64,000 nt of DNA from an uncultured Flavonifractor sp. (GTDB lineage Bacteria; Bacillota; Clostridia; Oscillospirales; Oscillospiraceae), in the NCBI GenBank assembly GCA_947346365.1, contig CANAAV010000007.1:32430-96429 (forward strand), read 5' to 3'. The position numbers were made by a program, and so were the translations under genes. Shown one piece after another: positions 1,311-39,077 of the stretch. The notes beneath the pieces were generated by a model. The model had not been told where the DNA came from and did no database searches. It saw nothing but the letters and a program-made list of their open reading frames with translations. The first letter of the stretch is position 1. Every line of letters starts with the position of its first letter.

Positions 1311-2444
1311 TCAATGTTCCTCCTCATACAGGGGCAGGGTGATGATAAAGCTGGTAAAGCGCCCATTGCTCTCCGCCCGGATGCCGCCCCCATGGCGCTC
1401 CACAATCTCTTTGGCGATGGCCAGTCCCAGCCCCGCCCCGCCGGTGCGGGAGGAGCGGGCGGCGTCCAGCCGGTAAAATTTACGGAAGATGTTGGCCAGC
1501 TCTCCCTCCGGAACCTCCAGCCCCTCGTTGCGCACGGCTACCTGGGCCGAGCCCCGGAGGGCCCGGGCTGTCAGCTCCACCTGCCCGCCGGGGATGCTGT
1601 AGCTGACGGCGTTGCGCAGCACGTTGTCAAATACCCGGGCCAGCTTATCCGGATCCCCCAGCACCGTCAGGTGATGCTCGATCTCCACAACACACTCCAG
1701 CTGCTTTTCCGCAAAAAGGGGGTAAAATTCATCGGACAGCTGCTCCAGCAGCATCGAAAGCTGGATGGGGCAGCGCTCCTCCGGCCCGCTGTCCAAGTCC
1801 ATGCGGGTGATGTCAAAAAACTCCCCCAGCAGCTCCTCCAGCCGCCGGGCTTTGTCCAGGGCTATACCGGTAAATTTGCTTCTCTGCTCCGCCGTCAGGC
1901 CGGGGTCGTCCCGCAGCAGGGTCAGATAGCCCACCACCGACGTCAGCGGCGTTTTGAGATCGTGGGCCAAAAAAGCAATCAGGTCCTGGCGGCGCTGCTC
2001 GCTCTCCCGGGCGGCCTGACGGCGCTGCTCCAGCTGCAGGCGCACAGCGTCCAGGTCCTCCGCCAGGGGACTCAGCTCGCGGGGCAGGCACACCGGCCGG
2101 GCGGAGTCCTCCACCACCTGGCGTACCGTGCGGCGCACCTGTTCCATCCAACGGGTGAAGCGGCTGAGCACCAAATAAAAGGACGTCACCAGCAGAAAAA
2201 GCAGCCCAGCCGTCAAAATACTCCCCCGGCTGCTGCGGATGTAGAGCTGATAGACCTCCAGGGCCTCCTCCTCGGTCTGGCCGAACAGGGACTGCGCCCC
2301 CCAGCAGAACAGCCGGGATACCGGGTCCTGAAACAGGCTGCCCAGCACATTCAGCAGCAGCAGGCCCGCCCCGGCCGCCAACGCCGTGCCCCCAGCCGCC
2401 AGCAACAGCATTTTCAGTTTCAACCGGGTATAGCTGTGCTTCAC
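1311..2444 (-). CDS. Membrane sensor histidine kinase, orphan
   Basis: A 377-residue two-component sensor kinase of the VanS/PhoR type. There are two membrane helices (about residues 12-34 and 75-97) with a short external loop between them, a linker, the phospho-acceptor box HDLKTPL (His161), an N-box (NVLRNAVSYS) and glycine-rich ATP-binding boxes (GLGLAIAKEI). It would autophosphorylate on His and pass the phosphate to a response regulator. No response regulator gene lies upstream: the next gene upstream is divergent. The kinase is followed directly by the GNAT gene. The signal is unknown. Confidence 0.9.
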   Translation of the reverse strand: MKHSYTRLKLKMLLLAAGGTALAAGAGLLLLNVLGSLFQDPVSRLFCWGAQSLFGQTEEEALEVYQLYIRSSRGSILTAGLLFLLVTSFYLVLSRFTRWMEQVRRTVRQVVEDSARPVCLPRELSPLAEDLDAVRLQLEQRRQAARESEQRRQDLIAFLAHDLKTPLTSVVGYLTLLRDDPGLTAEQRSKFTGIALDKARRLEELLGEFFDITRMDLDSGPEERCPIQLSMLLEQLSDEFYPLFAEKQLECVVEIEHHLTVLGDPDKLARVFDNVLRNAVSYSIPGGQVELTARALRGSAQVAVRNEGLEVPEGELANIFRKFYRLDAARSSRTGGAGLGLAIAKEIVERHGGGIRAESNGRFTSFIITLPLYEEEH

Positions 2445-2539
2445 ACCCGTCCCTCCCCGCGGCCGGTTTCTTTTTCATGGTATCACGTGCCGGAAAAAAA
2501 TGCAATGGGCCCGAAGCGCGATTTCCGCAAAATATCTTA

Positions 2540-2551
2540 GAACAAACGTTT
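2540..2551. promoter_or_regulatory. LexA (DinR) box
   Basis: The sequence GAACAAACGTTT matches the Gram-positive LexA/DinR core GAAC-RNRY-GTTY at every position. It overlaps the -35 element of the promoter at 2550-2578 and so is placed to block RNA polymerase. The nearest downstream genes are the S66-family gene and lexA, which would make lexA autoregulated. Confidence 0.8.
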
Positions 2552-2578
2552 GCGCTTCTCCGCAAAATGTGTTATACT
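2550..2578 (+). promoter_or_regulatory. Sigma-A promoter of the S66-lexA operon
   Basis: TTGCGC (2550-2555), a 17-bp spacer and TATACT (2573-2578) form a good housekeeping promoter. The LexA box covers its -35 side. Confidence 0.75.
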
Positions 2579-2634
2579 ATGAAGGAGTTATGCCTGTGGC
2601 GCCCGGCCCCCGCGTTGGAAAGGAGAGCGGCAGT

Positions 2635-3351
2635 ATGCAAAGGCCAAAAAGGCTGCGCCCAGGGGACACGTTCGCGGTTGTCAGCCTCTCCTGGGGCGGC
2701 CTGGTCTCCTTTTATGGGCCCAGCGTCATGGGCGAGTTCGGCGAGTACGTGGAGATGCCCGGCTATACGCGAAAAGCCGTTTCCGATATCCTTTTTGGCG
2801 CGTGGGAGCGGTACAGCCTTCCGCCCAGCGGGGAATGGACCGACAGCCACATCCCCTGGGGGGAGGAAAATATCCATACGCCCTACGCCATGAAAAAGGA
2901 CCTGCGCGGCTATGAGGTGCTCAACGGCGCCGGAAAAGCCCGGGGGCATCTGCTGGGCGGATGTCTCGACGGATTTATGATGCTCTCCGGCACACGGCTG
3001 TGGCCCCCCCTCCAGGCGTGGAAGGGCGCCATCCTTTTTGTCGAGACAAGCGAGGAGAAGCCCTCGCCGGATTTTGTCAAGCGGACCTTTCGGAATCTTG
3101 CGGCCCAGGGCATTTTAAAGGTCCTGCATGGAATCATTGTGGCCAAGCCCCAGGATGAGGTATACTATGAGCAGTATAAGGCCTCTATCCTCCAAGTGGC
3201 GGTACCCGAGGAGGCTTTGAGAGATCTGCCTATTTTTTATAATGTAAATTTTGGACACGCCAAGCCCATTGGAATCATTCCTTACGGCATCCAGGCAGAG
3301 TTAAACTGTGGGCGCAGAACTATCACGTTTTTAGAGTGCCCCACCGTATGA
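2635..3351 (+). CDS. S66 (LD-carboxypeptidase/MccF-like) family protein with internal deletion
   Basis: A 238-residue protein related to S66 serine peptidases, which cut LD-peptide bonds in murein or inactivate microcin C-like compounds. The N-terminal family strand (GDTFAVVSLSWGG, residues 10-22) runs directly into GLVSFYGPS, which in full-length relatives lies about 100 residues later. The missing piece carries the nucleophilic Ser of the Ser-Glu-His triad, while the Glu (FVETSEE, E137) and His (NFGHAKP, H208) remain. The join is in frame, so the protein may fold but should not have peptidase activity. The start at 2635 is chosen for its GGAAAGGAG ribosome site; earlier in-frame codons precede the promoter-proximal leader. 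It is the first gene behind the LexA-box promoter, about 100 bp before lexA. Confidence 0.8.
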   Translation: MQRPKRLRPGDTFAVVSLSWGGLVSFYGPSVMGEFGEYVEMPGYTRKAVSDILFGAWERYSLPPSGEWTDSHIPWGEENIHTPYAMKKDLRGYEVLNGAGKARGHLLGGCLDGFMMLSGTRLWPPLQAWKGAILFVETSEEKPSPDFVKRTFRNLAAQGILKVLHGIIVAKPQDEVYYEQYKASILQVAVPEEALRDLPIFYNVNFGHAKPIGIIPYGIQAELNCGRRTITFLECPTV

Positions 3352-19041: not shown

Positions 19042-19080
19042 CCAAAAGAAAAGACCGCCTTTGGCGGTCTTTTCTTTTGG
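19042..19080 (-). terminator. Intrinsic terminator after tRNA-Gly
   Basis: A perfect 18-bp stem (19042-19059 with 19063-19080) with a 3-nt loop, beginning in the encoded CCA end of the tRNA and containing a run of T residues on the exit side. Confidence 0.85.
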
Positions 19081-19153
19081 AGCAGGTGACGAGGCTCGAA
19101 CTCGCTACCTCCACCTTGGCAAGGTGGCGCTCTACCAGATGAGCTACACCTGC
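19078..19153 (-). tRNA. tRNA-Gly (GCC anticodon)
   Basis: A 76-nt cloverleaf on the minus strand: acceptor GCAGGTG/CACCTGC, anticodon stem CCACC/GGTGG with loop TTGCCAA (anticodon GCC), T loop TTCGAGC, discriminator T and an encoded CCA. It marks the left side of the island that holds the RADAR-like operon. Confidence 0.97.
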
Positions 19154-19196: not shown

Positions 19197-19447
19197 GTGT
19201 CATTTTCCGCTTTTCTGGGCCCCTATCCGCCGCTGCCTTTCCCAGCGGATTCGCCCGGTAAAAGCTTCAATTTCTTCGTCTGTTTATACAAAATAAAATT
19301 CTCTATTCTGGGCAAAACATAGAATATTAAATTTTTCAGTTTTTTTGTCGCAAAACGCGCGCCAATCAGATATGATTAGTACAGGAAAGATCTGTCCCTC
19401 CGCCCCAGCCCGAAAAAAGCGCCTTCCTCATCCTACATAAACGGGAA

Positions 19448-19483
19448 AGCACGCTTTCCCGTCCTAAAACGGAAAAGCGTGCT
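19448..19483 (-). terminator. Hairpin after the 74-residue gene
   Basis: Ten-bp stem AGCACGCTTT/AAAGCGTGCT with an inner CCGT/ACGG extension; the T tract on the exit side is short, so it is a weak terminator. Confidence 0.5.
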
Positions 19484-19509
19484 GGTGGGGAAGGTTTTGG
19501 AGGCGGAGC

Positions 19510-19734
19510 TTACCGGGAAAACTGCTGCGCCTGATAGGCGCTGCGCTTGAGCTGCTCGTACTCTTCAGAATTCCGGAAATAGCTGGCAGTACCGGCGCTG
19601 CGGTAAAGCGCCTTGTACAGGGCGGGAGGGAGTTGTTTCCTGCTGTGGGAAACTTTGATAACCGCTGCCGTCTGCTCCGGCGCGGCGGCCGCCCTGGTTG
19701 CAGGCGGCACTGTCATGGGTTGCATTTTAGTCAT
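19510..19734 (-). CDS. Hypothetical 74-residue basic protein
   Basis: A 74-residue protein that I do not recognise. The N-terminal third is Ala/Pro/Thr-rich and probably disordered; the C-terminal half (residues 40-74) is Tyr/Gln/Arg-rich and likely helical. There is no signal peptide or membrane helix. It looks real because it has AGGAGGG at a good distance from its ATG and a near-consensus promoter (19783-19811) with a short hairpin-bearing leader. It is divergent from the RADAR-like operon. Its role is unknown. Confidence 0.6.
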   Translation of the reverse strand: MTKMQPMTVPPATRAAAAPEQTAAVIKVSHSRKQLPPALYKALYRSAGTASYFRNSEEYEQLKRSAYQAQQFSR

Positions 19735-19782
19735 TCATATATTCCCTCCTATGGCGCGGCAACGCGCCAAATTACGTTCAAC

Positions 19783-19811
19783 AGCATACCATACCATACG
19801 GTTTTTGTCAA
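19783..19811 (-). promoter_or_regulatory. Promoter of the 74-residue gene
   Basis: Minus strand TTGACA (19811-19806), 17-bp spacer, TATGCT (19788-19783). A GGCGCG/CGCGCC hairpin lies in the leader just before the ribosome site. Confidence 0.75.
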
Positions 19812-19898
19812 CTGCCTCCCGTGGTTTTCTCCTGGGCAATTTTTACCCTGGCGAACCTTTGAAAAACCCGTATGGCGCGTTCCCTGCCGTATACGCGG

Positions 19899-19965
19899 AA
19901 GGGACCCCGCTGGGGGTCCACCAGCGGCCTCCCGCAGCGGCGGGCGGCCGCGGGTCCCTTTTTAT
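19899..19965 (+). terminator. Three-way-junction terminator-like element upstream of RADAR-like operon
   Basis: An outer stem (AAGGGACCC 19899-19907 with GGGTCCCTT 19952-19960) encloses two hairpins (CGCTGG/CCAGCG and GCC-CCCGC/GCGGG-GGC) and is followed by TTTATTA. It could end a rightward transcript or attenuate rdrA. I see no clear promoter between it and rdrA. Confidence 0.5.
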
Positions 19966-20120
19966 TAATATGCCCTGGATCTCAAAAGGATACTTGTAAA
20001 CCGGCACAATTGTTCTGCCAGCCGTCCCATACATTGGATTGTGAAAGACCGGCATCGTGAGCTTGCAATTTTATCCCTGCCCTCCGGCGGGAGAGCCAAA
20101 TAGACTGAGGAGGAGAGAAC

Positions 20121-23100
20121 ATGACGTTGAATGATCAGCCGCGCATTACCGGCGGCGAGCCCAGCCGCAAGCTGGGCGTCAAATACCTGGACACGGAACA
20201 GATGGGCAACACCTTTCCGGATTATCAGGCGCTGCTGGACCGGATTGAGGAGCACCGGCAGATTGCCGACTACGCCGCCCGCCTTCCGGGGCGGGAGCAT
20301 ACCGCCAAACGCCAGCCTCAGATGTACGACAATGTCTATGCCGTGCTGGGGGGCCGCGGCACGGGCAAGAGCTCCGTAATCCTTACCCTGTGCGAGTGGT
20401 TAAAGCAAGACAGGAATCACCAGGATTTGGTGTTCCCCATCATCACGCCGGAGATCATCAGCGAGGACAACTGCTCCATACTGGGCTGGATCATGTCCAT
20501 GACGGAACAGATCGTTACTCAAATTGAAGAGCGGGTCAAGCAGATGCGCGGCCGGTACGATCCCCGGTCTTATCCAACCTTTGAGCGCATTGGCCAGGTG
20601 GATTTTTTTAAGGACTGTCTGTTTAACTCCCATAACCAGCTGCGCGAGCACTACCAGGCCCTTATGCGGGACAGCATTCAGGACGATATTCCCCCCACCG
20701 CCTTCCCTTTTGACGAGGCGGTGGGCCTGCGGGTGCACCTCTCCCATAAGCAGTACCAGCTGATTCAGCGGCTCAACCAGTTCTGGGACGAGCTGTCCGA
20801 AACCTGGCGGGAGCTCAACCAATTGGACCACGATCTCCACTCCGGCATTTCTCATGGACAGTCCGAAACCCGGGTGCCCCAGCCGCTCATCATCCTCTTT
20901 TTTGACGACATCGACCTGGTGCCTGAGCGGAGCATGGAGCTGCTCAACTCCACCTTTCAGTATTTTACCCATTCCAGTATTGTGCTGATTATCACGGCGG
21001 CGGAGAAGGTTTTAAAGGAGGTCATTCAGCTTCGAATGCTGGAGCGGACGGTGGGCTCCACGTATAACTCCCTGCTGCTGGACGCTCACCCTGTCAAGCG
21101 CAAGGTCCATTCGGACAGCATGTGGAAGTCTATCCAGAACATGGCCAAAGAGTATTACAACAAGGTCCTCCCGCCGGCCAACCGCTACCGCCTGCGCCGG
21201 TTTGAGAGCATTTCTGAGCGCAGGCGCTATCACTACGCCAACAGCCAGCAGTCCTTTGAAATGCCCCAGGGCGTACACTCTTTCCCTCTGAACGAGTTTC
21301 TGAAAGACCAGGTGGATAAACTTATTCAATCCTTCGAGCTCGAACAGCGCGGCCAGCGGAAGAACTTTCTCCTGTCTGAAAGCGGGAGCTTCCGGGAGAG
21401 CTATTTCATCATCTTTGGGGATAAAAACCGGAATATCGCCAACAGCTGTCTGGAAATTCTCAACTGCACCAGCCAGCTGGGCGCCATTGTCCACACCCAG
21501 GGCCCCAACGGCTATTCCGCCCGGGATTATGAGGGGATGCTCCACATCCTGCGCCACATGGTTCGGGCGCTGATGCTCTCTATCTCCGACCTGGCGGACC
21601 TCTCCGAGCAAGTCGACCGGTTTTTGTACCGGCACGGTCCGGACAATCTCCCCTATGTGGACTATACCGCTGCCCTGGACTGCTATTTGGACGAGCGCCG
21701 GAAGGTGGGGTTCGCCAGCCAGAAAAGAGCCGACAGCGGCGACGAATCCCCCTCCCGGGAAGGCCTGGAAGGTCAGGAAACCCGCGCGGACGTCAGCCGC
21801 CTTCATCAGCGCACGGCGATTCATATGATGATTTTATACTTTGCGGAAAACCTGCTCTATCTGATGGTGCCGGACAAGATCGTCCGGGGGGGCTACCCGG
21901 AGCTCTCCTATCTGCTCAACAGCGACAGCTTCAGCCCAGAGACCGCCCACAGCTTTTCCGGCAGCGGCTTTAAGCTCTTCCCCTCTCGCATGGAGATGGA
22001 TCAGTTCCTGGACCGCTCCCCTTTGGTGCTGGAGCACATGGACCGCTATGTGCGGTTTGACCCCTATGACCAAACCTGCATTCAAGACTACCTGCTGGAC
22101 ACCTTCTACAGCCTGTTAAAGTCCCAAAAGGACGGGGCCTCGCTGCTGCGCGGCTACCAGATCACCGACCGGGAGTGGGTGCGCTCGGTGCTGTCCATGC
22201 TCTTTCTCCGCTACAGCGGCGTAACCCAGGTGGACCGGGGATTTTTGGAGTTCGCCGTAAAAGAGCGCAATCAGCTGGAATGCGTCAACTTCGGCGGGCC
22301 CCTCAACGCCGCTATTGTCCGGGAGCTGGAGAGCTTCCTGCGCTCCAGCAGTCTGGAGGAGACCGCCGCCGCGCGGCTGAAGGAGCTGGAGAATATCCTC
22401 AAAAACCCCCAGCAGGAGTGGGACATCCCCTTGGACGAGCAATTTCTGCGCGGCAGCAACCTATCCGTACAGGAAAAAAACCTCCAGTTCGAGCAGCTGA
22501 AAAAGGAACAGGCCACCCGCTTCATCCAGGGCTATTTCCTGCGCAGCTGGGCGGCCGAGCACGGCCGGGACGGAGGCGACGGTCAGGACAAGGAGCTCAG
22601 CTTCCGCCTGATTGCCTTTGTGGAGGCGATCATCCGCCGGGCGGCCAAGGCGATCCTCTCCTGCACCCGGCTCCAGCTGCGCAAAGACACGCTGGAGAAG
22701 CTGCAAACCTTGATGTCCCACAACTACAGCGTCTCCCTGGATCTGCTGCAGCAGCGCAATCTGCTGCGCGCGGAAGTTGACCGGGGCATGCGCTGGTTTG
22801 AGGCCCATCCTAACGAAGCCGCCACCCAGTACGCTTTTCCCAGCGAGCCGATGCTCAACTATGTCTTCACCCTGTACGACGCTCTTTTTGACACTGCTTC
22901 GGTGCCGGACGAAACCCTGGAGTATTTCCGGGCGGAGCTGATGGATCAATATTTCAAGCTGCTGGAGCTGCTCCGGCTCTACGACCGCTATGAGAGCCGC
23001 CCTGTCTCCCCCTTCCTGCCCCTTGACCTGGAGGACATGGCGGAACAGACCTCCTTCCTGCCGGAGCAGCAGGAGTCATCGGAAGAATTTCACCTGGCTT

Positions 23101-23384
23101 TCTCCTCCTGGATTATTTTGGATCTCAAGACGGCGGAATTTCTGATTCCCTACTATTTTGCCGCGCGGATGAAGGTGGCCCTGAGCACTCCCACGCCCAA
23201 AGCCGGTCCCCGCCACAGCCGGATCGTCCAGTATCCGGACCGGGACGCCGTGGACCAGGAGCTGAAAAAGCTCTATAAGAGCCTCACCACTTCCAGGGGA
23301 AGCAGCATGCTGCGGGCCATTATGAACGAGGTGCGCACCGATTTGGCCCAGCAGTACATCAAGCGCCTGGAGAACGCCCTATGA
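20121..23384 (+). CDS. rdrA: RdrA-like AAA+/KAP-type ATPase of a RADAR-like defence system
   Basis: A 1087-residue ATPase. Walker A is GGRGTGKSS (residues 77-85) and Walker B is LIILFFDDID (256-265), followed by a sensor-like IVLIITAAE. The remaining 750 residues are helical and have no motif I can name. Overlapping by ATGA is a gene for an adenosine-deaminase-fold protein. This pairing, large ATPase then large deaminase, is that of RADAR, in which RdrA assembles with RdrB into a supramolecular complex that deaminates adenosine in RNA or ATP during phage infection. The start follows GGAGGAG. Assignment rests on Walker motifs plus gene context, not on a sequence search. Confidence 0.82.
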   Translation: MTLNDQPRITGGEPSRKLGVKYLDTEQMGNTFPDYQALLDRIEEHRQIADYAARLPGREHTAKRQPQMYDNVYAVLGGRGTGKSSVILTLCEWLKQDRNHQDLVFPIITPEIISEDNCSILGWIMSMTEQIVTQIEERVKQMRGRYDPRSYPTFERIGQVDFFKDCLFNSHNQLREHYQALMRDSIQDDIPPTAFPFDEAVGLRVHLSHKQYQLIQRLNQFWDELSETWRELNQLDHDLHSGISHGQSETRVPQPLIILFFDDIDLVPERSMELLNSTFQYFTHSSIVLIITAAEKVLKEVIQLRMLERTVGSTYNSLLLDAHPVKRKVHSDSMWKSIQNMAKEYYNKVLPPANRYRLRRFESISERRRYHYANSQQSFEMPQGVHSFPLNEFLKDQVDKLIQSFELEQRGQRKNFLLSESGSFRESYFIIFGDKNRNIANSCLEILNCTSQLGAIVHTQGPNGYSARDYEGMLHILRHMVRALMLSISDLADLSEQVDRFLYRHGPDNLPYVDYTAALDCYLDERRKVGFASQKRADSGDESPSREGLEGQETRADVSRLHQRTAIHMMILYFAENLLYLMVPDKIVRGGYPELSYLLNSDSFSPETAHSFSGSGFKLFPSRMEMDQFLDRSPLVLEHMDRYVRFDPYDQTCIQDYLLDTFYSLLKSQKDGASLLRGYQITDREWVRSVLSMLFLRYSGVTQVDRGFLEFAVKERNQLECVNFGGPLNAAIVRELESFLRSSSLEETAAARLKELENILKNPQQEWDIPLDEQFLRGSNLSVQEKNLQFEQLKKEQATRFIQGYFLRSWAAEHGRDGGDGQDKELSFRLIAFVEAIIRRAAKAILSCTRLQLRKDTLEKLQTLMSHNYSVSLDLLQQRNLLRAEVDRGMRWFEAHPNEAATQYAFPSEPMLNYVFTLYDALFDTASVPDETLEYFRAELMDQYFKLLELLRLYDRYESRPVSPFLPLDLEDMAEQTSFLPEQQESSEEFHLAFSSWIILDLKTAEFLIPYYFAARMKVALSTPTPKAGPRHSRIVQYPDRDAVDQELKKLYKSLTTSRGSSMLRAIMNEVRTDLAQQYIKRLENAL

Positions 23385-26248
23385 ACCGCAAGCAGCGGGT
23401 GGAGATGATCCTTCGGGTTCTGCTGCTGCCCTTTACCCAGACGCTGCTCAAGGAGGACCTGCTGTGCGCCGCGGCGCTGTCCTACCGGGAAATGGTGCGC
23501 TGCACCAGCGCGGACCCCTACATTCGCAAGACCAACCAGGACGGCTACCGAAAGTCATGGGGCAGGCTGGAGCGCGTTTTGGAGGAACAGACCCAGTGCG
23601 AACGGCTGGGGGAGCTGGAGCAGCTGCTGGAGATGTTCTATCCGGCGGAGGAGCTCAAGGACTATCTGGACTCCCGGGAGACCGACCGGCTGGACGGATA
23701 TTATATCCAGCATATTTTTCAAATCGCGGCGGAATTCATTACCCTGCGGGACGGGGTCCTCTCCATCCGCATGTGGGAGGAAAAAGAAAAGGACAAGCTC
23801 TTTCGCGGGCAGAGCGGCCTTTACAAGGCCGAAATGTGGAGCGCGCTCTCCAGAATCGCAACCCCCGACCTGTTCCTCGCAGGCTATTTCGCGGGAAATC
23901 AGATCGACGACATCCGTCTGCTGTTCGACCTGCCGGAAAACGTATTTCTAAGCGATACCCTCTTGGCCAAGGTCAACCGCCACGGCGTGGCGGAGACCCA
24001 TATGCACATGAGCGCCGGTATGAGCTATCTGACGGTGTGGAGCGCGGTCACCGACCCCTTGGCCCAGCGGCTGGCTCAGGCCGGCCGGATTTCCGCCCTT
24101 CACGAGGCCCAGCGGGAAGAGCAGTTGGAACATGAGAGTCTGTTTGTGGCGGGCTGGCTGCGTCTGCTGATGGCCTACTACCTGGAGCAGTCCGGGGACG
24201 TGGATATTTCGGAGTCATTTTTTTCGGACAGCGCCGCCTCAAACGAACGCAGCATGGAACAGCATATACTGCGCCATATGCTGCGCGAAAGCGTAAGTCA
24301 ATGCGACATCCTGCATCTGCTCGGAGATCTGCGTCCGCGCCTGCACTATCCGGAGTCCCTTCAGCGGCTGGTGCAGGTATATCAGCTGGACCGGGAGCCG
24401 GCCCTGGACATTCTGCTGCGGGGCCCCTACAAGAAGTACCGGGGCCTGCGCACGGAGCCGGAGCTGTTGCTGCTCTACAGCGCCCTGCGGCACATCCGCC
24501 GCTATCCGAGCCACAGGAATTTTCTGCGCCTGTTTCTCCATTACGTCCGCATGAAGAACCAGTATTTCAGCGATAAGATGCAGACCTACGGCCCCAGCGG
24601 TCTGACCTTTTTCCGGCGCTATTTTCATAAGGCGGCCTCCGCCATGTATACGCCGTCTTATCCGGACGAGGTAAACGAGCGCCTTATCTACCAGGCGGTG
24701 TTCCGCAGCCAGTTCCGCTGTCAAAACCTGCAAAAGCTGGAGGTCAAAATTTCTCCCCGCATTCCCACCAACTGGGAAAAAGCGCTGCCCTTTTTTCACA
24801 CCGGCGCCCGGGGAGATAAACAGGCCATTGCAAACCAGCTGCTCAAGATTTTTACCGCGTTTTTGAACGTATGCCGGGAGCACCAGGGCCGCTCCTGCGT
24901 CCCTACTCTGGGCATTGTCTACCATTTTATCAAAAGCGACGTATACCGCCCCTCCAACGACCAGTGCTGGGTACGCACAAACGAAAATCACGAGCCTATG
25001 GATTTTGTCAGCCAGGTCCGCGCTCAGTGCGTCCGTTTTCTCAAGGCCCTGCAGCTGCTGCTGCGGGAGGTGCCTTATCTCTGCGAGTATGTAGTGGGGC
25101 TGGACGCCGCCAGTCAGGAGCTGGACGCGGACCCCTGGGTCTACGCACCGGTCTACCGGGCCGCCCGCAACCGCAGCAATACTGTTCCGGTCCAGCTGGA
25201 AACCATGGAGCTGATGCAGGGAATCGGCCTTACCTATCACGTGGGGGAGGATTACCGGCACCTTTTGTCCGGCCTGCGGCATATCGACGAGGTGCTCACC
25301 TACCTGGGTTATAAGCCGGGCGACCGCATCGGCCATGGACTGGCCCTTCAGGTCGACGTGGCGGAATGGCTCCACAATAATGAAACGGTGCCGCTGCCCA
25401 TGCTCGAGCATCTGGAGAATCAGCTGTGGCTCTGGGCTTTGTGCGGGGAGGCGCCCGAGCAGCTGGGCGGCTACCGCTACGATCTGGAGGCCAAAATCAT
25501 GGAGCTGGCCGCGGGAATCTATCAGAATACCCGCGGCCTCTCCCCCCATGTGCTCTGGGAGGGATACCGGCGCAAATTCGCCCCCCTGACGCCCCAAAAG
25601 TGCGAACAAATCCGCCGGCTGTACCTACAGGACATGCCGGAGGGGGAGTTCTGCCGCTGCCGGCACTATACGCGCAGTCCCCTTCAGAGCTTCTGCATCG
25701 GCGCCGACAGCCAGGATCCCTCCTGGGATGCGGACAAGCTGTGTATGACCAATTACTGCCCCATCTATACCCGCCACGCCAGAAAGCCCGTTTTCGTTTC
25801 CAGCACTCCCGAACAGCTGGCAATGCTCCAGGCGGTGCAGCGCTACATGCGGGAAAAGGTCCAAAACGCGGGCATTTTTGTGGAGACTAACCCCACCTCA
25901 AATATCTCCATCGGGGACATCCGCAGCGTGAGCGAATATCCCATCACTGCATTAAACGGCATTCCGCCAGCGGCGGTCCGTCAAAATTCCATCCTGCTCT
26001 CCATCAATTCAGACGACCCTCTGGTCTTCAATACCAACGTGGAAAATGAGCTGGCCCTTGTGTACCATACCCTGGCGCACCAGGGCTATGAGCGGGAAAA
26101 AATCCTACAGTGGATGGACAAAGTGCGCCAATACGGCATGGACAGCAGTTTCATCCGCACGGTAAAAAGTCCCCAGCAGCAGTGTGCAGAGCTGGAGGTT
26201 ATTATAGAGCGCCTAAAAATCATCATGGGTACGTTCGGCGAAAATTAG
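23381..26248 (+). CDS. rdrB: RdrB-like adenosine-deaminase-fold effector of a RADAR-like system
   Basis: A 955-residue protein that keeps the whole adenosine deaminase active site: HxH in AETHMHMS (His207, His209), YHVGED (metal His620, catalytic Glu623), DRIGHG (His652), NPTSN (837-841) and SDDP (metal Asp878, Asp879). Spacing between HxH and HVGED is about 410 residues, far more than in housekeeping adenosine deaminase, so there are large insertions, as in RdrB. Its start overlaps the ATPase stop (ATGA), showing tight coupling. It should deaminate adenosine-containing substrates; the exact target (RNA or ATP/dATP) cannot be read from sequence. Confidence 0.88.
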   Translation: MNRKQRVEMILRVLLLPFTQTLLKEDLLCAAALSYREMVRCTSADPYIRKTNQDGYRKSWGRLERVLEEQTQCERLGELEQLLEMFYPAEELKDYLDSRETDRLDGYYIQHIFQIAAEFITLRDGVLSIRMWEEKEKDKLFRGQSGLYKAEMWSALSRIATPDLFLAGYFAGNQIDDIRLLFDLPENVFLSDTLLAKVNRHGVAETHMHMSAGMSYLTVWSAVTDPLAQRLAQAGRISALHEAQREEQLEHESLFVAGWLRLLMAYYLEQSGDVDISESFFSDSAASNERSMEQHILRHMLRESVSQCDILHLLGDLRPRLHYPESLQRLVQVYQLDREPALDILLRGPYKKYRGLRTEPELLLLYSALRHIRRYPSHRNFLRLFLHYVRMKNQYFSDKMQTYGPSGLTFFRRYFHKAASAMYTPSYPDEVNERLIYQAVFRSQFRCQNLQKLEVKISPRIPTNWEKALPFFHTGARGDKQAIANQLLKIFTAFLNVCREHQGRSCVPTLGIVYHFIKSDVYRPSNDQCWVRTNENHEPMDFVSQVRAQCVRFLKALQLLLREVPYLCEYVVGLDAASQELDADPWVYAPVYRAARNRSNTVPVQLETMELMQGIGLTYHVGEDYRHLLSGLRHIDEVLTYLGYKPGDRIGHGLALQVDVAEWLHNNETVPLPMLEHLENQLWLWALCGEAPEQLGGYRYDLEAKIMELAAGIYQNTRGLSPHVLWEGYRRKFAPLTPQKCEQIRRLYLQDMPEGEFCRCRHYTRSPLQSFCIGADSQDPSWDADKLCMTNYCPIYTRHARKPVFVSSTPEQLAMLQAVQRYMREKVQNAGIFVETNPTSNISIGDIRSVSEYPITALNGIPPAAVRQNSILLSINSDDPLVFNTNVENELALVYHTLAHQGYEREKILQWMDKVRQYGMDSSFIRTVKSPQQQCAELEVIIERLKIIMGTFGEN

Positions 26249-26312
26249 CGCAGCCTTGGAGCTGGGATATTTTGACCTGCTTCAAGCAAAAACCGGCACA
26301 GGAGGATGCGTA

Positions 26313-26987
26313 ATGGACCATTTTTTAAAAAAATTCACTGTTATTGATTTTCTGGGAATGTTTGTTCCAGGCGCCGCCGTTATGCTGTTATGGAACTACT
26401 ACTCAGGCGGGATTACCGAACCATTCCACGCCTTTTTTGGCGAGCAGCCCGCCATTCTTGTATTCTACTTTGTCTTTTGCTCCTATTTCATGGGGATGCT
26501 GCTGCAAGAGGCAAGCAAGCCCATGGATTCCCTGCTGATCCAGCTGAAAAAAGTAAAGCAGGCCCATCAAAACGGGCAGCAGGAGCTCAAGGTAAAGCAG
26601 CTTTATAGGGCCTGCTTTGGCAAAAAAGTAACGGACGTAACACCCCAAGAGGTCTGGCGCAATATTTATCTCCATGTCCAGTCTCAGATCAGTCAATCCA
26701 AGGTTCCGCTTTTCCGCGCTTTCAGCGCGATGGGACGCACCTGCTCGGCCGCATCCATTGTCATTGCGCTGCTCTATCTCTACGCTGTGTATACCGGTGC
26801 GACCGCCTGGTCTCCCTTTCCCCTGGCGGCCTGTGCCGTCACCCTGCTGGCTATGCTGCGGCGTTATGTCCGCTTTTACGCCATTTCTGTGGAGTATACT
26901 TACGCGATTTTCATCAAAAGCGGCTGTGGGCAGACCTCCGCTCCCCCCGCGCCCCAAAGCGCAGCGGAAAGCGGAGCATCCACCTGA
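26313..26987 (+). CDS. Four-helix membrane protein, likely RADAR accessory
   Basis: A 224-residue membrane protein. Hydrophobic helices are seen near residues 9-28 (VIDFLGMFVPGAAVMLL), 47-66, 143-162 and 168-186, with a 75-residue charged cytoplasmic loop between helices 2 and 3 and a C-terminal RRYVRFYAISVEYTYAIF motif followed by a disordered tail. The start at 26313 has AGGAGG; the longer TTG frame from 26256 lacks a site. It lies 64 bp after rdrB. Some RADAR loci carry a membrane accessory (SLATT-type RdrD or Csx27-like RdrC); this could fill that place, but I cannot show homology. Confidence 0.75.
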   Translation: MDHFLKKFTVIDFLGMFVPGAAVMLLWNYYSGGITEPFHAFFGEQPAILVFYFVFCSYFMGMLLQEASKPMDSLLIQLKKVKQAHQNGQQELKVKQLYRACFGKKVTDVTPQEVWRNIYLHVQSQISQSKVPLFRAFSAMGRTCSAASIVIALLYLYAVYTGATAWSPFPLAACAVTLLAMLRRYVRFYAISVEYTYAIFIKSGCGQTSAPPAPQSAAESGAST

Positions 26988-27065: not shown

Positions 27066-27097
27066 AATGGTAGAGCATCGCATTCGTAATGAGAAGG
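27066..27097 (+). other. tRNA-like fragment in the tRNA-Thr leader
   Basis: The sequence shares GGTAGAGCA and the anticodon loop ATTCGTAAT with tRNA-Thr 100 bp downstream, in the same order and near the same spacing, but has no T arm and a poor anticodon stem. It looks like a decayed partial copy or attachment-site remnant. Confidence 0.5.
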
Positions 27098-27159: not shown

Positions 27160-27235
27160 GCTAGTGTAGCTCAGTCGGTAGAGCAGCTGATTCGTAATCA
27201 GCAGGTCAGGTGTTCGAGTCACCCCACTAGCTCCA
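27160..27235 (+). tRNA. tRNA-Thr (CGT anticodon)
   Basis: A 76-nt cloverleaf: acceptor GCTAGTG/CACTAGC, D arm GCTC/GAGC, anticodon stem GCTGA/TCAGC with loop TTCGTAA (anticodon CGT), T loop TTCGAGT, encoded CCA. One mismatch in the T stem. It marks the right side of the RADAR-like island. Confidence 0.96.
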
Positions 27236-37763: not shown

Positions 37764-39077
37764 ATGAATTCCCCTGCCGACGTCTGGACAAAGGTACTCT
37801 CGCTGATGAACGGGGACATGACCGCCACTACCATTAATACCTGGTTTGACGACTGCGCCGCGGTCTCCCTGGACGAAAACCGCTTTGTCCTGCACACCCC
37901 CTCCAATTTTAAACGGGACATCATCGTCTCCCGCTACCTGCCCGCTGTGCAAAAGGCTCTGCGGGAGCTCTTTTCCGCCGATTTTGAGGTCGTCGTCCTG
38001 GGGGAGGGGGAGCTGGAGCAGCACAATAAGTCCTCCGGCGAGAGCTTTATGCCCGGCACGGAGGAGTATACCTTCGAGCGTTTTGTAGTAGGCGCTTCCA
38101 ATAAGTTCGCGCATGCCGCGGCCCAGTCGGTGGCCGACCGGCCGGGGCAGAGCTACAATCCCCTGTTTATCTATGGGGAATCCGGCCTGGGCAAGACCCA
38201 TCTGCTCTATGCCATCGCCCATAAGCTCCACGCCAGCCATCCGGATTTCCGCATCTTGTATATCAAAGGGGACGCCTTCACGAACGAGCTGATCGGCGCC
38301 ATTCGAGAGGGCCGCAACCAAGAATTTCGGGAAAAATACCGCTTTGCCGACGTATTTCTCATGGACGACGTGCAGTTCATCGCCGGTAAAGAGAGCTCTC
38401 AGGAGGAGATGTTCCACACCTTTAATTCTCTTTATGAGGCCGGACGGCAGATCGTCTTCACCGCCGACCGCCCTCCCAAGGAGATGCTGCGCTTAGACGA
38501 CCGGCTGCGCACCCGGTTTGAGTGGGGTCTTCCGGTGGATATCCAGCCGCCGGACTATGAAACCCGCGTAGCCATCATCAAGAACAAGGCCATCCGCCGG
38601 GGCATCAACCTGCCCGACCCGGTCTTACAGTACATTGCGGAGAACATCACCTCCAACGTCCGCCAGATCGAGGGCACGGTCAATAAAATTCTCGCCTTTC
38701 AGGAGCTGATGGGAGAGAGCGTGGACGTAGACACCGTAACCCGCGCCGTACGGGACATGTTCAAGGATAAGGCGGACTTTCTCCCCTCCTCCGACGTTAT
38801 CATTGAGGAAGTCAGCAAATTTTACAATATTGAAGCGGAGGCCATCCGGGGCCAGGGCCGCACCAAGGACACCGCCCAAGCCCGGCAAATCGCCATGTAT
38901 CAGATCCGCCGCATGACCAATCTCTCCCTCAAGGAAATCGGGCGGGAATTTGACAACCGGGATCACTCCACGGTCATGCACTCCATCGAGCGCATTGAAA
39001 AATTGATGAAGCAGTCTCCGGAGATCGCGGAGATTATCAAGGACATCAACGCCAATATCAACGCCCGCTACGAGTAG
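37764..39077 (+). CDS. dnaA: Chromosomal replication initiator DnaA
   Basis: A 437-residue DnaA. Domain I is at the N-terminus (WTKVLSLMNGD), domain III contains the P-loop GESGLGKTHLLYA and the Walker B DVFLMDDVQF, and domain IV ends in the DNA-binding signature EIGREFDNRDHSTVMHSI. DnaA-ATP melts the origin and loads the helicase. Strong promoter upstream, dnaN downstream. Confidence 0.99.
   Translation: MNSPADVWTKVLSLMNGDMTATTINTWFDDCAAVSLDENRFVLHTPSNFKRDIIVSRYLPAVQKALRELFSADFEVVVLGEGELEQHNKSSGESFMPGTEEYTFERFVVGASNKFAHAAAQSVADRPGQSYNPLFIYGESGLGKTHLLYAIAHKLHASHPDFRILYIKGDAFTNELIGAIREGRNQEFREKYRFADVFLMDDVQFIAGKESSQEEMFHTFNSLYEAGRQIVFTADRPPKEMLRLDDRLRTRFEWGLPVDIQPPDYETRVAIIKNKAIRRGINLPDPVLQYIAENITSNVRQIEGTVNKILAFQELMGESVDVDTVTRAVRDMFKDKADFLPSSDVIIEEVSKFYNIEAEAIRGQGRTKDTAQARQIAMYQIRRMTNLSLKEIGREFDNRDHSTVMHSIERIEKLMKQSPEIAEIIKDINANINARYE

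Follow-up and report, generated by a model that had tools for sequence, protein, structure and literature searches.

A divergent RADAR-like gene cassette with a Csx27-like membrane protein in an uncultured Flavonifractor genome

Gene content of the cassette

The locus described here lies in a stretch of 64,000 nucleotides from an uncultured Flavonifractor sp. (GenBank assembly GCA_947346365.1, contig CANAAV010000007.1, positions 32,430 to 96,429), which we call the window. On its forward strand three genes follow each other closely: a gene for an RdrA-like AAA+ ATPase, one for an RdrB-like adenosine deaminase, and one for a small membrane protein (Table 1). Judged by homology, this cassette is very likely a divergent, Csx27-associated form of RADAR, the anti-phage system built on the RdrA-RdrB pair.

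An initial annotation, made from the letters of the window alone, had reported the two large open reading frames with their lengths, their ATGA overlap and the positions of their motifs, and all of these proved correct. It had added a membrane protein to the pair. This third gene stands, but its start had to be moved from TTG 26256 to ATG 26313, which is most likely the true start: the motif AGGAGG precedes it at 26300-26305 and both homologues of the protein begin at that methionine. The shortened product has three hydrophobic stretches of 19 residues.

Table 1. Features of the cassette and its flanks (positions in the window)
Feature	Position	Strand	Remarks
rdrA-like AAA+ ATPase gene	20121..23384	+	1087 aa; intact open reading frame
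rdrB-like adenosine deaminase gene	23381..26248	+	955 aa; intact open reading frame; ATGA overlap with rdrA
Csx27-like membrane protein gene	26313..26987	+	224 aa; 64 bp after rdrB; open reading frame listed from TTG 26256
Shine-Dalgarno-like sequence before rdrA	20107..20115	+	GAGGAGGAG
tRNA-Gly (gcc), upstream flank outside the cassette	19078..19153	-	
tRNA-Thr (cgt), downstream flank outside the cassette	27160..27235	+	
Partial tRNA-Thr-like copy between the cassette and tRNA-Thr	27069..27097	+	29-base local match, score 33

Identity of the deaminase and the ATPase

Both proteins were compared with known families singly and as family profiles. A profile search of genome contigs yielded 20 loci, which together with L015 and L053 make 22 relatives (L014 and L023 are the same locus and enter the count as one; L032 and L039 belong to a single metagenome-assembled genome, MAG). 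The RdrB family alignment holds the window and 20 relatives: L015 and L053 were left out, L020 and L038 are cut by contig ends, and the split RdrBs of L033 and L035 enter with their longer piece alone. The RdrA family alignment holds the window and 18 relatives, without L015, L053, L020 (no upstream sequence) and L028 (split RdrA).

On profiles and conserved residues the assignment of the deaminase to RdrB is firm. The NCBIfam RdrB model matches residues 202-921 with E=8.6e-53 and the PADLOC RdrB model gives E=5.1e-35, whereas the model for ordinary adenosine deaminase (ADA) reaches just 31.4 bits against a cut-off of 216.55, and there is no short insertion-free core. As a single sequence the protein matches the solved E. 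coli RdrB (8fnw) with E=5.5e-20; an annotated Aliivibrio RdrB does no better against the same structure (E=8.7e-19). The family profile finds the solved RdrB at 9.8e-50, and no ordinary adenosine deaminase in the PDB does better than 1.7e-7.

The catalytic set consists of H207 and H209 (the HxH motif), H620 and E623 (in HVGED 620-624), H652 (in GH 651-652), and D878 and D879 (in SDDP 877-880). In a joint alignment the HxH histidines, H620, E623 and H652 are identical in all 23 rows of the clade, the window among them, as well as in all 9 other RdrBs and all 8 ordinary ADAs. The two aspartates are found in 22 of the 23 clade rows and in all rows of the other two groups, and the one gap fits the contig end that cuts L038. 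Window residues H620/E623/H652 align with H498/E501/H530 of E. coli RdrB (positions counted by hand), which are named as zinc or catalytic residues in PMC9994260.

These elements had been described as fused in a far larger frame. All of them are there, but the protein is a single deaminase with insertions of the RdrB type and not a fusion. Its N-terminal extension measures 207 residues, the HxH-to-HxGE distance 413 and the GH-to-DD distance 227; the corresponding medians are 19, 184 and 58 in the eight ordinary ADAs and 164, 367 and 235 in the nine other RdrBs. Given these differences from ADA, the RdrB-type extension and both core insertions are present.

For the ATPase the likeness to RdrA is remote but specific, and weak when taken alone. 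Walker A (GGRGTGKSS, 77-85, with K83) and Walker B (FFDDID, 260-265, with D262/D263) are both intact. The family profile picks E. coli RdrA (8fnt/8hr7, 1.5e-7) from the PDB, the remaining matches being two designed proteins with E 0.38 and 4.3, so that no other credible chain competes. In hhalign the family scores 99.3% against seven other RdrAs. Walker A and B are 180 residues apart, compared with 155-196 in the clade and 131-159 in the seven other RdrAs, a spacing consistent with room for the crown insertion described for RdrA in PMC9994260. R437, a possible sensor 2 judged by position alone, is invariant in 19 of 19 rows. With a limit of E 0.01, the NCBIfam models recognise all 21 RdrB members and 17 of 19 RdrA members; the PADLOC RdrA model recognises 8 of 19.

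The proposed pairing of RdrA with RdrB is therefore supported by the RdrB profiles, the catalytic residues, the insertions and the RdrA-specific family profile, and the deaminase groups with RdrB models and structures rather than with housekeeping ADA. The outcome that the initial annotation had named as refuting it did not occur. Both chains had been called very large. They do exceed their counterparts (RdrA: 947 residues in E. coli, 836-993 in seven other RADARs; RdrB: 799 in E. coli, 799-912 in nine others), though not to an extraordinary degree.

Several observations weigh against the assignment to RADAR. Both proteins miss the NCBIfam cut-offs (180 of 800 bits for RdrB, 23.7 of 600 bits for RdrA), which are set at equivalog level. 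The ATPase alone scores weakly with NCBIfam (E=1.5e-5) and PADLOC (E=0.0016), and as a single sequence it has no PDB match up to E=1. Its family profile does not reach S. suis RdrA (8fnu) up to E=10, the alignment to other RdrAs is limited to the ATPase half, and the PADLOC mad8 model also matches 7 of the 19 members (best 1.3e-4). The sensor-1 aspartate (E. coli D253) is alanine in the window (A294, bases 21000-21002) and in L021. Read from the alignments, the E. coli crown residue K150 has no evident counterpart in the window RdrA, nor have the shell-interface glutamates E595-E597 in the window RdrB; because of the latter, shell assembly is something we infer. Finally, the tree described below places ADA, with a long branch, within the other RdrBs and so does not recover all RdrBs as a single clade.

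Relatives, third gene and flanks

The RdrB tree covers 523 columns and sets the 23 rows of the clade against 9 further RdrBs and 8 ordinary ADAs. It splits the window and the 22 relatives from all others with a bootstrap of 100; closest to the window is L020 (51% identity), followed by L021 (42%). Hosts of the relatives are Clostridia and Bacilli (Bacillota), plus one Fusobacteriota plasmid; in the Cetobacterium plasmid pair of the clade both genes are annotated as hypothetical. RdrA lies directly upstream of rdrB in all 21 relatives with upstream sequence (in L028 it is split and the second piece is unscored). Distances between RdrAs and between RdrBs correlate with r=0.92 over 19 loci, a value reached by none of 2000 permutations: the pair is co-inherited.

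Distribution is sporadic. Among the 30 nearest genomes the window's own is the only carrier. An RdrB search of 391 class genomes gives eight matches, of which one (G241) is a frame of ADA size and seven, including the window's own, are of RdrB size; in 398 phylum genomes there are likewise eight, seven being ADA-size frames (321-385 aa) and the eighth the window. The RdrA model matches four of the seven RdrB-holding genomes, with G000 itself, G109 and G363 lacking a match. A family search around G337 returned G337 itself (1/41) and no new locus, and a gene-order search around G199 two loci (2/22), both already known. The RdrAB locus of G199, a genome of the same class, is base for base that of L023 from an uncultured Clostridia bacterium, which agrees with the annotated Clostridia-type genome. 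A scan of viral contigs with a three-row RdrB alignment found nothing, and phage records gave no match. Some IMG/VR contigs do carry distant RdrB relatives (L075-L077, 22-25% identity), and prophages may therefore be vehicles for RADAR-type genes.

Against the PADLOC Csx27 model the third protein itself scores weakly (E=0.0026); since its homologues next to rdrB in L020 and L035 score strongly (5.7e-10 and 1.5e-12), we assign it to this family. Of the 21 relatives profiled for such homologues (L053 left out), these two match. A further candidate in L034 (hhalign 51%) is unrecognised by PADLOC, and 0.5 kb upstream in L024 lies a gene with a weak likeness to DUF4231/SLATT. Csx27-associated and SLATT-associated RADAR subtypes are both listed in PMC7699616, a commentary on Gao et al., and the gene set of the window therefore corresponds to a published arrangement. 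RADAR is described from 75 genera of 7 phyla, and that of S. suis has been tested (PMC9994260). The claim of a Gram-positive variant is thus overstated in so far as Gram-positive RADAR is not new. As both Gram-positive and Csx27-associated forms are already known, the cassette is a divergent addition in a separate RdrB clade.

Other neighbours and gene forms were seen in the relatives. A VanZ-like membrane protein gene (L053:9087-9518) begins 72 bases after rdrB in Cetobacterium. L039, a second RADAR in the MAG of L032, has an 899-aa protein (L039:24-2723) 1 base before rdrA; towards its N-terminus it is similar to CRISPR models of the Csm3/Cas7 type (E=1.4e-15), and the protein has no Pfam match. 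Upstream of rdrA in L023, from a Clostridia MAG, are an RloB-like gene and a gene for a protein with four hydrophobic stretches (1516-2253 and 2352-3113). Split genes are found for rdrA in L028 (3381-5153 and 5211-6788) and for rdrB in L033 (6995-9847) and L035 (7001-9973), two frames each. In a Rhizobium RADAR locus a gene annotated as adenylosuccinate synthetase, an enzyme of the IMP-to-AMP route, lies 0.9 kb downstream (L054:7612-9213).

In the window, GC content of the cassette is 0.578 against 0.584 overall and the contig is shared with dnaA-gyrA, on which grounds we reject a stray contaminating piece of assembly. The cassette had been placed beside the replication origin: the dnaA region is on the contig, with dnaA at 37764-39074 followed by dnaN, a recF-like gene, gyrB and gyrA, but dnaA is 10.8 kb away. 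The score of the tRNA-Thr-like fragment was reached by none of 2000 base shuffles, and the fragment is a possible footprint of integration or insertion. A search for direct repeats flanking the cassette gave just short two-copy matches, and an empty-site comparison was uninformative because gene order around the locus is not conserved across five fetched stretches. Upstream of rdrA about 0.9 kb (19200-20120) has no convincing gene. By eye it contains a GC-rich inverted repeat (19900-19907 and 19952-19959) followed by T-rich sequence; the repeat is absent from the terminator scan listing, and there is no Rfam match. At the gathering cut-off Rfam finds two tRNAs only between 17000 and 30000.

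Proposed mechanism, alternatives and significance

From homology to the system described in PMC9994260 we infer how the cassette would act. RdrA would assemble into a heptameric ATPase ring, detect infection and join in one complex with a hollow, dodecameric shell of RdrB, whereupon RdrB would deaminate ATP and dATP to ITP and dITP. The nucleotide pool would be poisoned and the infected cell would stop both growth and phage production. The Csx27-like protein would have an accessory role, and the Ham1-SIR2 loci discussed below suggest by analogy that it may be a membrane effector. The RADAR of the window is probably functional.

A serious though still doubtful alternative is that RADAR works as a signal generator: RdrAB would be the sensor and would make ITP or dITP as a second messenger, to be read by the product of an exchangeable neighbour gene, so that these nucleotides would serve as an alarm and not only as a poison. 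In the window the Csx27-like protein would then be a nucleotide-gated membrane effector, and in three sister loci a Ham1-SIR2 protein would turn (d)ITP into NAD+ loss. Such fused Ham1-SIR2_2 proteins adjoin rdrA or rdrB in 3 of the 22 relatives (L028:1971-3374, L029:9501-10967 and L032:1196-2905), with E 1.9e-36 to 8.8e-34 for Ham1 (PF01725) and 4.4e-27 to 1.9e-16 for SIR2_2. They occur on three separate branches of the RdrB tree and in two positions: ahead of rdrA, with a gap of 6 bases in L028 and an overlap with the listed rdrA start in L032, and 19 bases after rdrB in L029. Three deaminase queries found no deaminase other than RdrB in these stretches of 16-17 kb, so in the simplest reading RdrB supplies the inosine nucleotide there.

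In the RADAR-linked Ham1 halves the motif reads VEHT, a form in which a catalytic Asp of Ham1-type enzymes would be replaced; ADDT or ADDS stands at this place in four solo Ham1 proteins from class genomes. VEHT is shared by the Ham1 members of two prophage operons (deaminase-Ham1-SIR2) and by that of a Ham1-SIR2 pair in Pantoea. Genes for adenosine deaminase, Ham1 and SIR2 follow one another on five IMG/VR contigs, which fall into two distinct types; this is presumably the make-up of Kongming, with KomA as the deaminase, KomB as the Ham1-like and KomC as the SIR2-like protein. In Kongming dITP is reported to bind KomB and activate KomC, leading to NAD+ depletion (PMC12948488, PMC12774641).

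Other results speak against a signalling role. At E 1e-25 Ham1-SIR2 has no match in the window's own genome, and of the 14 matches listed for the 391 class genomes not one spans both halves; nor was it found at any of 12 other RdrB loci. A Fisher test of 3/22 loci against 0/391 genomes gives p=1.3e-4, a value that is indicative only, the samples being unlike. E. coli RADAR protects as a two-protein system (PMC9994260), and to argue from Ham1-SIR2 to the Csx27-like protein is analogy only. The SIR2 half alone is unspecific, since three class genomes have a SIR2 of similar type with no Ham1 or deaminase match in about 10.5 kb around it. A tblastn search of plasmids with Ham1-SIR2 gave 297 records; all of the 30 that were listed come from Pantoea and have Ham1 and SIR2 as separate genes, and no deaminase was found within 4 kb of the one pair inspected. 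The open-access literature searched, in the parts available, yielded no link between RADAR and Ham1-SIR2 or Kongming proteins, and PMC12948488 in its available text treats RADAR and Kongming apart.

It is very unlikely that the window holds a decaying or ATPase-dead copy, with RdrA disabled by the sensor-1 change. This suspicion comes from the usual role of sensor 1 in AAA+ ATPases and from A294 standing in for Asp. By eye, the position is Asp in 14 of the 19 RdrA rows, Glu in L035, Asn in L032 and L033, and Ala in the window and L021; as L021 has the alanine too while being just 36.5% identical in that region, the change looks like tolerated variation. All three frames are open, moreover, and neither Walker motif is damaged.

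Editing of adenosines in RNA was the first proposal for RADAR, as retold in PMC9994260 and PMC7699616, and the initial annotation had left the substrate as RNA or ATP. We consider RNA very unlikely for RdrB. PMC9994260 reports only a minor A-to-G signature and no in vitro RNA editing under conditions where ATP was deaminated, and the fold is of the mononucleotide deaminase type, which by profile the window protein shares; ATP is thus much better supported in publications. The Pfam A_deaminase match (E=9.1e-8) might be quoted for a housekeeping deaminase, acting on adenosine or AMP, that just happens to adjoin an unrelated ATPase. This reading has next to no probability, contradicted as it is by the profiles, the motif spacing, the tree, the constantly adjoining RdrA and the sporadic distribution (1 of the 30 nearest and 7 of 391 class genomes).

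With a divergent RADAR as the preferred reading, the cassette can be set beside known systems. It shares with the RADARs of E. coli (8fnt/8fnw/8hr7), S. suis (8fnu) and C. rodentium the gene pair and its order, the catalytic residues, the RdrB insertions and the RdrA-specific profile, but differs in its separate RdrB clade, its larger RdrA, the loss of the sensor-1 Asp and scores under the NCBIfam cut-offs. Csx27-associated RADAR has the same three kinds of genes (PMC7699616), a likeness that depends on the PADLOC Csx27 model, to which the window protein is a weak and its homologues are strong matches. Cad1, a CARF-adenosine deaminase, also makes ITP from ATP (PMC11645235); unlike the window protein, which matches it weakly (PADLOC E=0.013), it carries a CARF domain and acts together with type III CRISPR. 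The comparison with Kongming concerns what we take to be a deaminase-family enzyme feeding an inosine nucleotide signal, and sister loci whose Ham1-SIR2 resembles its sensor and effector. The window itself has no Ham1-SIR2, and its 955-residue RdrB comes with RdrA, whereas the prophage-operon deaminases have 326-342 residues.

RADAR is reported in less than 1% of genomes (PMC9994260), and in 135 of 22,818 genomes by DefenseFinder as quoted in PMC13327615. Detection is by sequence, and since the RdrA models of NCBIfam and PADLOC give poor scores to the clade of the window, RADAR in Bacillota may be undercounted, as far as these two models suggest. The interest of the clade lies mainly in its swappable neighbour genes. 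Sister loci with Ham1-SIR2 make it testable whether the ITP and dITP from RADAR would be purely a poison or also a second messenger like the dITP of Kongming, and they bear on the role that accessory membrane proteins may have in RADAR.

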